Shown in pieces: positions 11,519-35,171 of a stretch of 64,000 nucleotides of DNA. Position 1 is the stretch's first letter; each line of letters begins with the position of its first letter. A model generated the notes under the pieces. The model saw only the letters and a list, made by a program, of their open reading frames with translations. It searched no databases and was not told the DNA's origin. This DNA comes from Nitzschia sp. DOCU1. Lineage: Eukaryota > Bacillariophyta > Bacillariophyceae > Bacillariales > Bacillariaceae. The stretch spans positions 1,612,001 through 1,676,000 of the forward strand of contig OX595985.1 of assembly GCA_951394045.1 (NCBI GenBank), read 5' to 3'. A program made the position numbers and the translations under genes.

Positions 11519-14500
11519 TTCCTCAATCTGCCGACGAGGTTACAAGATACCCTGGCCGTATGGACATACATTGGCCTGGCGTACTTGATAATCTACATAT
11601 GGGTGACGGTCTATGCCGACAGCTGCTACTACTACTATCCTAAGAAGCAACGCTTTCGGGCTAAGTTAACTCGCTATTTAGCATATCTACGAGCCTGGAA
11701 AATCGCGATTTGGACTAGTTTTAGGCTGCGAATGAAGCACAGTCAACAAAACAAGGAAGTGAGGCGACGACGGGACATCGCCAGCAAGTACCGACGCAAC
11801 GACATGCCGCTACAATGTCACGTCTGCGGCAGCATCAACTTTGCAGCGCCGCGAACACTACAAGTCTGGCAAGTCCTATTGGCAATGGAGACGATGACGA
11901 ACAAAGGAGAACGGTTAGCAGTGATCGATACAGACTCGACAACCCTTGGGATCGACAATCGCGCGACGGCTTACCTATCGGGGTTCATCGAGGACTTCCC
12001 CGGTGAACTACAGCCAACAAATCGGATCGTGAACGGGTTCATGGGAGCCAAGGCCACGAATGTGTCAACAGGAACAGCAAAAGTAAGGTTAGAAGCCGAC
12101 GGCGGCGACGTGCACGACTTCACTCTGCACGATTCCTACTACGTACCTGGATGCGGAATACGCCTCTTCAGCCCACAACATTGGGCCCAACAAATGAAAA
12201 GACAACATCGCGGCCCAGCCCAATCGACAACCACACACGACCGCGTCATCCTCAGCTCCAAAGACTTCACCAAAACGATCCCACTCGATCCGGTCACCAA
12301 CGTGGCGACGTGTCGGACCGCCCCCGGATACTCCAAGTTTGCGGCGTTTTGTGCGGAGGCAGGATTCGACGATGACGGCGACGACGTCCTGGCATTCGAT
12401 GCACAGGTTATCTCCGACGATGAAGATGACGATCCTGCGGATTTCTCGAATATAGGCAACGATAATGTTAGCGACGACGTTAACAACAACATACGCGACG
12501 ACACAGAAAACTTACTCGGACCAACGCCTGCTCCACCTGCCAATCCTGCGAGGATAGTGGATGAAACAGAGGTTGAGAGAGAGGAAAGGAAGCTCGAGAC
12601 CGAATTACTGACTTACCATCTGCGCTTCGCCCATGTATCCTTTCGGAAACTACAGATCATGGCGCGATACTCCATCATCCCAAGGCGACTGGCCAAATGT
12701 CGCGTTCCCGTATGTGCAGCCTGCATGTTCGGTAAAGCAACAAAGCGTCAGTGGAGGCAGAAGGCACCAATCAACAAGGACGAAGCTTACTTACCAACAA
12801 AACCGGGTGAAGTGGTCTCGGTCGACCAAATGAAGTCCCCAACACCGGGGTTCATCGCGCAGATGACAGGTATCTTGACGACGAAGCGATACGTGTATGC
12901 AACTGTCTACGTGGACAGCTACTCATCGTTCGGCTACGTCTACCTGCAGAAGACCGCTAGTGCTGACGAGACGATCGAGGGCAAGCATGCATTCGAACGT
13001 CTGTGCCAGCAAAACGGTTTCAGAGTCCAACATTATCATGCCGACAATGGAATTTTCAAGGCCAACAAATGGGTGCTTGACTGCCACAAATGCGAGCAAG
13101 GTCTCTCATTCGCGGGAGTCAACGCGCATCACCAGAACGGACAGGCGGAAGCTCGAATCAGACGACTACAAGAGCTGACGCGCACACAACTGACCTACGC
13201 AAAACGACAATGGCCACAGGAGATCTCGGCGAACCTCTGGCCATACGCCCTCCGAATTGCGAACGATGCAAACAACGCGACACCCAATCTGGCCGACAAA
13301 CCTGACTACCGCTCCCCAGCGGAGCTCTTCTACAGTACGAAGGTCTCCACCAACGCCAAGCGCTGGCAACACTTCGGTTGTCCAGTGTACGTGTTGGACA
13401 GGAACTTGCAACAGAACAAACCGCTCCACAAGTGGGTCAGTAGAGCGAGGGTTGGGGTGTACCTGGGACGATCACCACACCACTCTCGTTCTATTGCGCT
13501 GGTGCTGGACATCAAGACGGGACTTGTGTCTCCACAGTTCCACATCAAGATGGACACAATGTTTGACACCATAGCACAACTCTACCAGTCGGTGGAGAGT
13601 GCTAGCACACAACAATCGCTATGGCAAATCAAGGCGGGGTTTGTTCAGCAGTCACAAGCGAATGTGACAGCACCCAAGCAGGGCAATGCGACAACCACAG
13701 CTTCGAAAAGAAAACAGGTCACTACACAAAACTCTCAGACAAGAGAGGGCACCCAAGTTCCAGAGGGAGCCTACGTGGCACCACCTGAACCACGCACAGT
13801 CGACATGTCCCCGAAGACAGACAGGGACAGCGGTTCTCCCACCGTTACAGAAGGGAACACACCCGGGAATGGCAAACAACAGCCATCTACACAACAACAC
13901 CAGTCTCCACGAATGCAATCAGAATCTGGTACGGCCACCAGGCGATCGCAGAGACGCGTGCAACCTGCGCAACGACTGATAGAAGCAATGACAGCGGAAC
14001 TCACTACGCAAAGTGATGTTCCTGGCGAAGTGTTCTCCTTCCAGGCGATGTTCCCAAGCGACGGCAGGTCCATCAACGAGGACCTGAACCCACTCTATGC
14101 CTACAAAGCCAATGCAGACCCCGACACTCTGTATCTTCACGAGGCTCAGAGGGAGAGCGACTGGGAACAGTTCGGCGAAGCAATGGAACTGGAGATCAAG
14201 CAACAGGTCGACATGGGAGTCTACACCATCATGTTACTCACCGACATACCAACGGGGACTACCGTGCTACCTGCAGTGTGGCAACTGCGCCGCAAGCGCG
14301 ACATAAGGACGGGCGCAATCAAGAAATACAAGGCACGATGCAATATCGACGGTTCTCGAATGCGACACGGCGAGCACTACGATCAGACGTATGCTCCGGT
14401 TGCCGGATGGCCCTCGATAAGGCTACTGCTGGCGCTGGTTCTACTCTTCAATTGGCGAACGGTCCAACTCGACTACGTGCTCGCGTACCCACACGCGCCA

Positions 14501-15733
14501 GCAGACAGGGACCTCTACATGAAGCTACCAAAGGGATTCACCCTCGACGGCGTTGACGACCCAAGCAAGTATTGTCTACGAGTCAACCGCAACCTCTATG
14601 GGGGAAAAAGCGCCTCTCGTATATGGTATCAATATCTGAGGAAACGGCTCATCGACAAGTGCCATTTCGTGGTGTCCAAGCACGACGAGTGTGTATTCTA
14701 CAAGGGCAACATGATCTACGTCCTCTACACCGACGACTCAATCTTAGCCGGTCCTGACCAGGCAGAGATCGAGCGAACGATACAGGAAATGAGAGACGCA
14801 AACCTCAACATTACCATTGAGGGAGATCTCACGGACTTTCTCGGAGTCAACATCGATCGGAAAGAAGACGGAACGATACACCTGACGCAACCCAAGCTAA
14901 TCGAACAGGTGATATCGGACCTACGCATGCAGTATGACAATGTACGAACCAAGGACATCCCCATGGCGTCCAGCAGGCTACTGTCACGTCACCTGAGCTC
15001 CACACCACACGACGACTCGTTCCACTACAGGAGTGTCATCGGCAAGCTCAACTACGTCGAGCGCGGATCAAGGCCAGACATCGCATACGCAGTGCACCAG
15101 TGTGCACGGTTCTCCATCGACCCAAAGAAAGAACACGGCGATGCAATACGCTGGATCACACGTTACCTGCTCGGCACACGAGACAAAGGAATAATCTTCA
15201 AGGCAGATCCTTCGAAGGGATTGGAGGTATTCGTCGACGCCGACTTCGCGGGGAACTGGGACAAGGAACTGGCAGGATTCGACAAGGACACTGCTCGCTC
15301 CAGACACGGCTACATCATCTGCTACGCAGGAGTGCCAGTCACATGGAAATCACAGCTACAGCAAGAGATCGCTCTGTCTAGCTGCGAATCGGAGATCACA
15401 GGACTCTCGTACGCTTTGCGAGAGGCTATACCGATCATTGAGCTTCTGAGGGAGATGCAAGGACTCGGATTCAATGTGCACTTCGACAAGGCACACATCA
15501 CTTGCAACGTCTACGAAGACAACATGGGCGCCATTGAGATCGCCCGTACTCCCAAAGCAAGACCAAGAACAAAGCATATCAACAATCGTCTATTTCACTT
15601 CTACGACTATGTGGAGAGAGGCGACATCGAGATACATCATATCCGATCCGAAGATCAACCTGCCGATATCCTGACCAAAGCATTAAGCGAGGATCTCTTC
15701 GTCAAACACAGACAGGTCATCATGGGATGGTAA
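11519..15733 (+). CDS. pol: Retrotransposon Pol (protease-integrase-RT-RNase H)
   Basis: Open frame in the same phase as gag, separated only by one TGA. The first ATG is not until about 11731, so expression as Gag-Pol by stop readthrough is likely. Positions below count codons from 11585. Protease region near 122 (GIDNRATAYLSG). Integrase zinc binding H-H-C-C near 345-385, then the catalytic triad Asp414, Asp487 and Glu522 with D35E spacing. Reverse transcriptase contains QTYAPVAG, QLDYVLAYPHA and YTDD at 1048-1051. RNase H has VFVDADFAG, SSCESE and the C-terminal KHINNR...ADILTKAL. No frameshift or internal stop was found. A hydrophobic segment follows the TGA (see findings). Confidence 0.93.
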   Translation, partial: FLNLPTRLQDTLAVWTYIGLAYLIIYIWVTVYADSCYYYYPKKQRFRAKLTRYLAYLRAWKIAIWTSFRLRMKHSQQNKEVRRRRDIASKYRRNDMPLQCHVCGSINFAAPRTLQVWQVLLAMETMTNKGERLAVIDTDSTTLGIDNRATAYLSGFIEDFPGELQPTNRIVNGFMGAKATNVSTGTAKVRLEADGGDVHDFTLHDSYYVPGCGIRLFSPQHWAQQMKRQHRGPAQSTTTHDRVILSSKDFTKTIPLDPVTNVATCRTAPGYSKFAAFCAEAGFDDDGDDVLAFDAQVISDDEDDDPADFSNIGNDNVSDDVNNNIRDDTENLLGPTPAPPANPARIVDETEVEREERKLETELLTYHLRFAHVSFRKLQIMARYSIIPRRLAKCRVPVCAACMFGKATKRQWRQKAPINKDEAYLPTKPGEVVSVDQMKSPTPGFIAQMTGILTTKRYVYATVYVDSYSSFGYVYLQKTASADETIEGKHAFERLCQQNGFRVQHYHADNGIFKANKWVLDCHKCEQGLSFAGVNAHHQNGQAEARIRRLQELTRTQLTYAKRQWPQEISANLWPYALRIANDANNATPNLADKPDYRSPAELFYSTKVSTNAKRWQHFGCPVYVLDRNLQQNKPLHKWVSRARVGVYLGRSPHHSRSIALVLDIKTGLVSPQFHIKMDTMFDTIAQLYQSVESASTQQSLWQIKAGFVQQSQANVTAPKQGNATTTASKRKQVTTQNSQTREGTQVPEGAYVAPPEPRTVDMSPKTDRDSGSPTVTEGNTPGNGKQQPSTQQHQSPRMQSESGTATRRSQRRVQPAQRLIEAMTAELTTQSDVPGEVFSFQAMFPSDGRSINEDLNPLYAYKANADPDTLYLHEAQRESDWEQFGEAMELEIKQQVDMGVYTIMLLTDIPTGTTVLPAVWQLRRKRDIRTGAIKKYKARCNIDGSRMRHGEHYDQTYAPVAGWPSIRLLLALVLLFNWRTVQLDYVLAYPHAPADRDLYMKLPKGFTLDGVDDPSKYCLRVNRNLYGGKSASRIWYQYLRKRLIDKCHFVVSKHDECVFYKGNMIYVLYTDDSILAGPDQAEIERTIQEMRDANLNITIEGDLTDFLGVNIDRKEDGTIHLTQPKLIEQVISDLRMQYDNVRTKDIPMASSRLLSRHLSSTPHDDSFHYRSVIGKLNYVERGSRPDIAYAVHQCARFSIDPKKEHGDAIRWITRYLLGTRDKGIIFKADPSKGLEVFVDADFAGNWDKELAGFDKDTARSRHGYIICYAGVPVTWKSQLQQEIALSSCESEITGLSYALREAIPIIELLREMQGLGFNVHFDKAHITCNVYEDNMGAIEIARTPKARPRTKHINNRLFHFYDYVERGDIEIHHIRSEDQPADILTKALSEDLFVKHRQVIMGW

Positions 15734-31723: not shown

Positions 31724-32057
31724 GGCGGGGTTATTGTTACTACCGTTTAGGTTGTGCTGTTATGATGATTGGCATTGCACATCTCGCGGTCATGGTCGTT
31801 GACAAAAGAGGGCACGCCGCCGAGCCCCGCCCCGTTTCGACTGTCCGCAATGCGCGACGCGCGCGAAATTGCGATCTTCGACTTATCGGAGTCGTGGAAC
31901 GGGATCCACGTGAAACCTTTCTCTGTTTTTGCGAAAGATCTTTTTGTTTCCATATCATCAAACGATCGGATGATGACACTCAACTCCACAACCTATTACC
32001 GGCAGACGTGTTGTAGCTTTGAATTCTTATCGATTTGGACACCAAACCAACGAAGTA
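31724..32057. other. Divergent promoter region
   Basis: 334 bp between the starts of the COG5-like gene and the plastid ChuX/HutX-like gene. No gene is seen; ORFs crossing it have no features. Confidence 0.5.
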
Positions 32058-32606
32058 ATGATGAACAAAGGATCGCCGATTCTCATTTGTTTATGGACAT
32101 TCCTTCTGGCCACGAGCCGACTCACTGATGCCTTTACTGTTGCCCCGTCCATTGGGGCGACTCCTCCATCGACCACGAAGCTTGCGGCCTCCACCAAACC
32201 CGAGCCAACGTTGACTGCATCCGAGGAAAAAGTCTTTGAATTCCTACAGGAACTTCATCAGTCCAAATTGGCATTTCGAATTGTGGTGATTGGCAATGGG
32301 GCCATTCTGGAATCGACGAATCCACTGGGACCCAACATGTCGTTGAACCAGTCTCCCAAGTCGGGGGCCAATCTAGTGACGTTTGCATCGGAAGACAAGT
32401 CGTATGAGCTACATTTGCAAACTAATGCCATTTCCAAGGTCAGCCTGGTGGAAAAGGAAACTCCGGGTCGGACCATGCGCATTCTCCGGCTTGTCAATTC
32501 CGAAGGGCAATCCATTTGTTCGTTGATTCTGTCAGAGGATTCGGATGCCACGGCGAAATGGTTTCAATCTATGACTAGCAAATACGGGAATGAATGGCAA
32601 GTCTAG
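32058..32606 (+). CDS. Plastid-targeted ChuX/HutX-like protein
   Basis: 182 residues from the ATG at 32058 (a second ATG follows at once). The N-terminus is a signal peptide (ILICLWTFLLATSRLTDA) ending before FTVAP, close to the diatom plastid bipartite presequence (cleavage before Phe). The body resembles the haem-utilisation ChuX/HutX/HemS fold. A beta-rich domain carries HLQTNAISKVSLVEKE near 125, aligning with the HIKAEN...ALIERK stretch of bacterial ChuX, and RILRLVNSEGQS follows. Bacterial relatives bind or hand over haem. The known haem-ligand His residues are not clearly conserved, so function may differ. A bacterial or endosymbiotic origin is possible. The stop is at 32604-32606. Confidence 0.5.
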   Translation: MMNKGSPILICLWTFLLATSRLTDAFTVAPSIGATPPSTTKLAASTKPEPTLTASEEKVFEFLQELHQSKLAFRIVVIGNGAILESTNPLGPNMSLNQSPKSGANLVTFASEDKSYELHLQTNAISKVSLVEKETPGRTMRILRLVNSEGQSICSLILSEDSDATAKWFQSMTSKYGNEWQV

Positions 32607-33164: not shown

Positions 33165-35171
33165 TTATTGACCCAAGAGGGCGGCACCAAGGTTGACTCG
33201 TTGGGCCAAGCTGGGTCCTCCAACTCCACCGTCTGCTCGAAGTCCATGGTCTGCGGCTTCAATTTCCGGAGTGACTCTGATAGTGGGTGCCGAGGCGCTG
33301 CTGGAAGGCAATGATGCTGCAACAGATTGAGCCTTTTGAATTTCCATTTCACCCCAACGTGATTTTCCTGCCAGTCCGGCAGCTGCAACTCGGGCATTTC
33401 TCTTATCAAAATACGACGACGGTGCCGTAGCGCCTCCGACGGGAGCAGGAAGAGGGGCGGCTACTGGTGCTTGAACAAGTTGTGCGCCAAAGTTGATGCG
33501 TTGGGCCAAGCTGGGTCCTCCAACTCCACCGTCTGCTCGAAGTCCATGGTCTGCGGCTTCAATTTCCGGAGTGACTCTGATAGTGGGTGCCGAGGCGCTG
33601 CTGGAAGGCAATGATGCTGCAACAGATTGAGCCTTTTGAATTTCCATTTCACCCCAACGTGATTTTCCTGCCAGTCCGGCAGCTGCAACTCGGGCATTTC
33701 TCTTATCAAAATACGACGACGGTGCCGTAGCGCCTCCGACGGGAGCAGGAAGAGGGGCGGCTACTGGTGCTTGAACAAGTTGTGCGCCAAAGTTGATGCG
33801 TTGGGCCAAGCTGGGTCCTCCAACTCCACCGTCTGCTCGAAGTCCATGGTCTGCGGCTTCAATTTCCGGAGTGACTCTGATAGTGGGTGCCGAGGCGCTG
33901 CTGGAAGGCAATGATGCTGAAACAGATTGTGCCTTTTGAATTTCCATTTCACCCCAGCGTGATTTTCCTGCCAATCCGGCAGCTACAACTCGGGCATTTC
34001 TCTTATCAAAATAAGACGACGGTGCCGTAGCGCCTCCGACGGGAGCAGGAAGAGAGGCGGCTACTGGTGCTTGAACAAGTTGTGCGCCAAGGTTGATGCG
34101 TTCTGCTAGGCTCGGCCCGCCGACACCGCCATCGGCTCTAAGACCATGATCCGCTGCTACAACTTCGGGTGGGACTGGAACGGCAGCGACTGGAGCTGGG
34201 GCAGGTACGGATGGCGGTGCCGACGACCCTGGCAGAGATGTTGCTGCTTGTGCTGCTTTGGTAACTTCCGGTTCACCCCAACGAGACTTTCCGGCCTTCC
34301 CTGCAGCTGCTACCCTAGCATTTCGCTTTTCAAACAAAATCGTACTTTCTGACGACCGGAGAGCAGCCAAAGATGGAGGAGCGGCAGCACCGTTCACCTG
34401 GACTGCTCCATTAACAACTCCAGCTGCCATGGCCTTTTCATTCTCCATATCTCCCCAGCGCGACTTCCCTGCTGCTGCTGCAGCTGACACCTTGGCACTT
34501 CGTTGCTGAAATGCCGGACTTGCAGCCGTCGCACCAGGGACAGCCATTTCGGCACTGCCAGACAGCAATTTAAGCTTTTCTTCGTATTGTTGCCTGATTT
34601 TGTTCTCTGCAGCCGCAACCGCTTGGATCTTTTGTTGCTGAGCATCGACAATATATTTCGCCATGAACTGTTGGTATGACGATAGCTTTACTACCAATTG
34701 CTCCTTGGTCATTTGCGAGATATCTAAACCGGTTGGTGGAGGAACTGACGAGGTTGTTGCCAATGCCCCTGGTGCACTTTTCAGTGCCAGTAGCTCCTTC
34801 TTCAAATTCTATGGGGTCAGCAATCACCAAAGACACAGACAGCGGCAAAAGTACCAACGTGCACAAGTAGAAAGATGCAAAGTGAGCGACAAGAATTCAG
34901 AAAAGCCTCTCATTTTCTCGTTAAAACAGTTTGCCATTCAAATTCACCAAATTCAACAAGCCACACATACCTCGATCTCTGCATTCTTCTTCTCTTCGGC
35001 TTGCTTGACAGCCTTCAGCTTATCCTCATGAGCCTTGGCCATATATTCAGTCAATTCCGATGGATCTACAAACAGTTGGGTTGCGTGTCGTTGGACCGCA
35101 CTCGGGTAGATAAAGGCTGACGTTGGAACAGCCATCAAAGCAGCAGAAACGGTAGCGGCCCAAAACTTCAT
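33165..35171 (-). CDS. Plastid-targeted tandem-repeat protein with KSRWG motifs
   Basis: Two exons, 35171-34971 and 34808-33165, joined by a 162-bp GT-AG intron; the frame is kept and the product has 614 residues. The start MKFWAATVSAALMAVPTSAF is a signal peptide with the classic diatom plastid 'SAF' cleavage motif. Residues about 35-135 are Lys/Glu/Gln-rich coiled coil running across the intron (EYMAKAHEDKLKAVKQAEE, then NLKKELLALK). The rest is Ala/Pro/Ser/Val-rich, probably disordered. It holds five copies of a basic element ending in KSRWG(D/E) and four copies of DHGLRADGGVGGPSLA. The last three units are 100-residue repeats. No enzyme domain is present. The layout is that of a multivalent scaffold; function is unknown. 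It is not the described linker PYCO1, which I recall as carrying KWSP motifs not seen here. Confidence 0.8.
33201..34100 (-). repeat. Three-unit 300-bp tandem repeat inside the coding region
   Basis: Period is exactly 300 bp (100 codons). Units starting at 33201 and 33501 are identical over their length as far as I can read. The third unit, from 33801, has about seven substitutions, all near its distal part. A more diverged unit lies at 34100-34300. Phase 0 length means that unit gain or loss keeps the frame. Confidence 0.9.

Follow-up and report, generated by a model that had tools for sequence, protein, structure and literature searches.

The gene at positions 33165..35171 of a 64,000-nucleotide stretch of Nitzschia sp. 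DOCU1 DNA (the window) encodes repeated short elements strung along a chain predicted to be disordered. Is its product a Rubisco linker of the pyrenoid, as the original prediction had suggested by analogy, or a plastid scaffold of a different kind?

Gene structure and organisation of the protein

The gene lies on the minus strand, which the original prediction left unstated while placing its limits correctly, and contains one intron. Its ATG is at 35171-35169, its stop codon at 33165-33167, and the spliced product has 614 aa. Exon 1 (34971..35171, minus strand, 67 codons) encodes the signal peptide, the plastid presequence and the start of a first helix; exon 2 (33165..34808, minus strand) provides 547 codons and the stop. 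The 162-bp intron between them (34809..34970, minus strand, GTATGT...CATAG) falls inside helix 1. Several GT..AG pairs in the gene keep the frame open, and this one was chosen because it restores a helix common to the homologues (e.g. P0001). The host genome searched (52 Mb, 63 contigs) contains 63 matches to PF00504 (chlorophyll a/b-binding), counted by exon, and is therefore that of a photosynthetic alga. Two other features of the window may be mentioned: a retrotransposon reading frame at 11585-15733 (plus strand) matching RVT_2 and gag_pre-integrs, which we take to be of Copia type, and a small ORF adjoining the gene at 32019-32606 (plus strand), with below-threshold similarity to ChuX/HutX haem-utilisation proteins.

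The signal peptide (residues 1-19; 35115..35171, minus strand) starts with Met and ends in a VPTSAF↓IYPS-like sequence, Phe 20 following SA (SA↓F), as had been predicted for the SAF motif of diatom plastid proteins. A small residue followed by Phe after the hydrophobic core is present in 87 of the 91 N-termini that passed our filter, out of 209 sequences of the family; shuffled sequences gave a mean of 45.75 and a maximum of 58. This plastid-type presequence supports the proposed plastid targeting, as far as sequence can indicate it.

Two long helices are predicted downstream. Helix 1 (about residues 41-82; 34764..35051, minus strand, intron included) was placed from an AlphaFold2 model of homologue P0015, and helix 2 (residues 100-149; 34563..34712, minus strand) has a block pLDDT of 93-97 in the window protein's own model. 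The coiled coil named in the original prediction depends, as a label, on these two modelled helices. By eye, helices 1 and 2 (window 35051-34563, minus strand) resemble an internal repeat, with YMAKAHEEKLKA-like and YIVDAQQQKIQA-like stretches. The genome also encodes a 168-aa paralogue at C2:1599092-1599595 (locus L006, 3090-3596, minus strand) whose start resembles a signal peptide and which shares both N-terminal helices; devoid of the repeat-bearing tail, it constitutes a stand-alone N-terminal module.

The tail carries two kinds of element, called here S for KSRWG(D/E) and D for DHGLRADGGVGGPSLA. All five KSRWG[DE] and all four DHGLRADGGVGGPSLA sites announced by the original prediction were found, in the order S-S-D-S-D-S-D-S-D. 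On the minus strand, these are S1 (34428..34511, Trp 185), S2 (34251..34334, Trp 244), D1 (34074..34166, Asp 287), S3 (33927..34010, Trp 352), D2 (33774..33866, Asp 387), S4 (33627..33710, Trp 452), D3 (33474..33566, Asp 487), S5 (33327..33410, Trp 552) and D4 (33174..33266, Asp 587). Successive S are separated by 59, 108, 100 and 100 residues. The six Trp of the protein are residue 4 and one per S element; Cys is absent. Ala, Pro, Ser, Gly and Thr together account for 0.55 of residues 160-614, and the pI is 9.93 for the tail and 9.52 for the mature protein. The S elements are basic (pI 9.7-10.4, net charge +2 to +4) and the D elements acidic (pI 4.8-5.5, net charge -1 to -2). A genome scan with the stringent pattern GKSRWGxxE gave five matches, every one inside this gene, and none in the reversed control; an S-D consensus protein likewise matched only the gene at 33165..35171 among the best candidates, which were those scored.

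Part of this repetition is recent. A tandem array of 3.1 copies of 300 bp (33187..34102), an expansion of the S-D unit, includes S3-S5 and D2-D4, which are recent duplicates since the copies are 96-99% identical to the reference copy. Over 297 in-frame bases, units 1 and 2 differ by 4 codons with synonymous changes and 3 with an amino-acid replacement, and units 2 and 3 by 2 of each type. The array being young, repeat number within the gene is weak evidence of selection, and the evidential weight rests on conservation between species.

Predicted fold and searches for known relatives

AlphaFold2 models were obtained for P0015 (55 sequences) and for exon 2 of the window gene (46 sequences). Overall confidence is low (mean pLDDT 65.7 and 64.1, pTM 0.28 and 0.26, respectively), and the two models agree in showing confident long N-terminal helices and low confidence outside the elements. 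In the exon 2 model, 298 of 547 residues have a pLDDT <70, 177 of them <50, in keeping with the disordered tail originally proposed, whose linkers are the low-confidence regions of both models. Each S element is modelled as a helix-turn-helix with KSRWG and its Trp at the turn; the block pLDDT is about 79-90 for S2, S3 and S5 of the window protein and S2 and S3 of P0015, and 49-73 for S1 in both models and S4 of the window protein. The D element appears as two short helices around HGLRADGGVGG, with moderate confidence only. Because S is predicted to be a hairpin, the Trp conserved in it may belong to a small fold instead of acting as an exposed sticker. Conservation of the R, W, G and E residues of S may likewise reflect folding of the hairpin itself and not docking.

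The protein resembles no described family in the resources consulted. It has no match above cut-off in Pfam, in agreement with the enzyme domain's predicted absence, and NCBIfam yielded no score near a cut-off. A profile of D had no match in the PDB, and Foldseek recovered no structural relative of the P0015 model in the PDB (best E 3.8). Literature searches with the motif strings, largely excluding subscription papers, returned 13 articles, mostly on N-acetyltransferases and none with a diatom in the title. The description of the protein as new thus holds within the family libraries, the PDB and the literature searched for these strings.

Several isolated matches were discarded. Two of the five homologues searched against Pfam exceeded a cut-off: P0121 matched DUF7007 (37.2 versus 27 bits) over 41 residues within the repeat, a match absent from the other four, and P0030 matched ThsB_TIR (24 versus 21.2 bits) in its repeats, with no single significant stretch and no counterpart in the others. 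A profile of S retrieved the Ala-rich N-terminus of inositol-trisphosphate 3-kinase A from the PDB (E 0.019), attributed to composition, and aligned GKAGKSRW with ribosomal protein L2 (E 3.5), attributed to chance. One of the 55 members of alignment A4 matched any family, through a weak tail similarity to the low-complexity family TDP-43_C.

Distribution and conservation across diatoms

Protein searches yielded 240, 103 and 349 matches at E <= 1e-3. The matches listed (the best 120 of 240 and the best 120 of 349) include 208 distinct homologues, making 209 sequences with the window protein. Most of these entries are nameless, and all those with a readable organism are diatoms: Cylindrotheca closterium, C. 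fusiformis, Nitzschia inconspicua, Nitzschia sp. Nitz4, Pseudo-nitzschia multistriata, Seminavis robusta, Fistulifera solaris, Mayamaea pseudoterrestris and Trieres chinensis, together with the shortened names Odonte-, Chaeto-, Fragi-, Helicot- and Dact-. Both pennate and centric forms are among them; with most entries nameless and two listings limited to the best 120, members outside the diatoms are possible. Homologues also occur among MMETSP transcriptome entries. Phaeodactylum and Thalassiosira pseudonana are missing from the matches listed; as the listings cover the best 120 of the 240 and the best 120 of the 349, this is no proof of their absence from the family.

The alternation of elements extends across the family. 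The most frequent order is SSDSD (87 of 209 sequences, counting the window protein), followed by SDSD (29/209) and SDSDS (22/209). The number of S elements ranges from 1 to 9 and is exactly three in 127 of the 209. Median spacings over the 209 sequences are 61 residues for S-S, 41 for S-D, 65 for D-S and 110 for S-D-S. The pair of motifs, whose occurrence in other diatoms had been put forward as a check, is carried by a family spread over many diatom genera. Valency varies widely between species, and strict alternation is seen in the environmental homologues P0093 (970 aa, 7 S and 6 D) and P0010 (579 aa, 5 S and 4 D).

Conservation is concentrated in the elements. Among 55 chosen proteins, mean pairwise identity is 0.85 for D, 0.72 for S, 0.61 and 0.65 for the two helices and 0.32 for the linkers. 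Alignments A4 and A6 comprise 55 and 45 chosen homologues of the 208, mostly of SSDSD type, and the peptide sets A2 and A3 19 and 18, respectively, of 24 picked peptides each. In 528 distinct S segments, picked by the letters RWG, which are consequently at 1.00 by construction, conservation reaches 1.00 (rounded) for E(+4), 0.95 for R(-15) and S(-2), 0.93 for G(-4) and 0.87 for K(-3). The consensus is about [YF]xxRNAxVxAAAxAGKSRWGxxEVx[KR]A for S and about PPEVxAADHGLRADGGVGGPSLAERVNLGAQLL for D. With a loose pattern D is missing from 20 of the 209 sequences, some of them incomplete at one end (a first pattern gave 21, before a variant D was found in P0173); among these are Nitz4, several environmental sequences and P0141, which comes from the transcriptome of a cultured alga in MMETSP.

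The Nitz4 homologue deserves particular attention. Nitzschia sp. Nitz4 is termed apochlorotic in the accessible part of PMC11960938. Its protein, P0030, is an open frame of 666 aa with an ADAF↓V presequence and, by sequence, both N-terminal helical stretches. All eight S elements keep R, N, SRWG, E and K, with Lys -3 replaced by Met in four; their net charge of 0 to +2 is close to neutral, those of the window being more basic. Some near-identical Nitz4 copies may be young duplicates, and the divergent first and last S keep the same residues. D is missing even by the loose pattern, three FVNFGA(S/Q)LV remnants being left. A careful tree built on the N-terminal region (31 of the 32 rows chosen, without P0004; a quick N-domain tree covered 84 of 209) makes Nitz4 the sister of the window protein, P0001 and P0002 (support 97/92), all three of which carry D; D loss requires three changes on the careful tree. 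The idea that D loss exactly tracks loss of photosynthesis was abandoned because D is missing from 20 of 209 sequences including one from MMETSP.

Comparison with pyrenoid linkers and possible roles

In the available text of PMC11570498, helical elements 20-120 residues apart serve as a criterion for finding Rubisco linkers. The window protein is likewise predicted to be a disordered chain with structured elements at such intervals (S at 59, 108, 100 and 100 residues). EPYC1 of Chlamydomonas and CsLinker of Chlorella share the repeated helical elements, the disordered chain and this spacing (same part of PMC11570498). Both serve green-lineage Rubisco, the likeness noted here is one of design, and the window family differs in that two kinds of element alternate along the chain and the N-terminal region is helical. 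PYCO1 of Phaeodactylum tricornutum (Phatr3_J49957), the only diatom Rubisco linker in the literature searched, is also plastid-targeted, mostly disordered and basic, with several Trp-bearing repeats, but its stickers are KWSP motifs, it contains prion-like domains, and its W476 is required for small-subunit binding (PMC10288592, accessible part). The window protein is set apart by its KSRWG hairpins, by its D elements and N-terminal helices, and by a family that extends over many diatom genera. As predicted, its sticker is unlike that of PYCO1: the repeated small-subunit motif KWSP(R/Q) is found neither in the 614-aa protein nor in its homologues (KWSP in 0 of 208).

The reading that we favour, to which we give an even chance on the basis of sequences and models, is that the gene encodes a nucleus-encoded, diatom-wide, stromal multivalent scaffold. 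In this view the chain would oligomerise through its N-terminal helices, and every S and D would dock to a plastid protein at a surface that is conserved; with many weak sites on each chain, the partners would be drawn together in a network or condensate. D would possibly serve a photosynthesis-linked partner. Conservation throughout diatoms is as expected for a scaffold with conserved partners.

A Rubisco-linker role for such a scaffold is possible, though not favoured. S, D or both might act in the pyrenoids of many diatoms as KWSP does in PYCO1, the Nitz4 gene being a remnant or repurposed. The design, charge (mature pI 9.52) and spacing of helical elements within 20-120 residues fit the linker-like scaffold originally envisaged, as do the single Trp per motif, reminiscent of W476, and the homologues in MMETSP transcriptomes. 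The lack of KWSP does not, nor does the breadth of the family: the linkers known so far show little conservation between species (PMC11570498, in the text available), and the BLAST search of the PYCO1 authors is described in the accessible part of PMC10288592 as finding no homologue in other sequenced algae. The Nitz4 protein is a further difficulty. The apochlorotic N. putrida has lost rbcL, rbcS and prk and retained ATP-generating ATPase subunits, as given in the available portion of PMC9054022. In Nitz4, also apochlorotic, the gene retains a frame of 666 aa that contains eight S. Because that frame is open and its S elements are intact, S has probably a partner other than Rubisco, one persisting in plastids without Rubisco; this argument draws on the sequence of a single species, and the Rubisco loss is that of N. 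putrida. We regard the linker explanation as holding about one chance in four.

It is rather unlikely that the network is homotypic, with basic S binding acidic D of other chains and clients recruited to the self-condensing protein by other contacts. In the window protein, S and D carry opposite net charges (+2 to +4 and -1 to -2, respectively) and alternate strictly after S1, which would suit this model. S nevertheless occurs without D in 20 of 209 sequences (some end-incomplete), the net charge of S in Nitz4 is close to zero (0 to +2), and the conservation of D, as in DHGLR and GGVGG, far exceeds that of charge. Least probable is a role in organising plastid nucleoids, the S hairpins providing many contacts with plastid DNA or rRNA: the basic S of the window, the plastid genomes retained in apochlorotic diatoms (PMC10547550, accessible text) and the chance-level L2 match (E 3.5) are offset by the near-invariant Glu at +4, the low charge of Nitz4 S (0 to +2), the lack of any nucleic-acid-binding domain in the window protein according to Pfam and, in the family, a single weak TDP-43_C tail match among 55 members, to a low-complexity family.

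The stromal scaffold might, more tentatively, be a general one of diatom plastids, distinct from the species-specific linkers, in which S organises a housekeeping complex kept in colourless diatoms and D adds a photosynthetic client. If so, a single chain would couple two stromal machineries, one arm of which could be lost with photosynthesis. In contrast to PYCO1, for which the available text of PMC10288592 reports no homologue elsewhere, this multivalent, predicted plastid protein is strongly conserved in many diatom genera and kept in one colourless diatom. It is thus a testable candidate for the organisation of the stroma, with S and D usable as separate baits.
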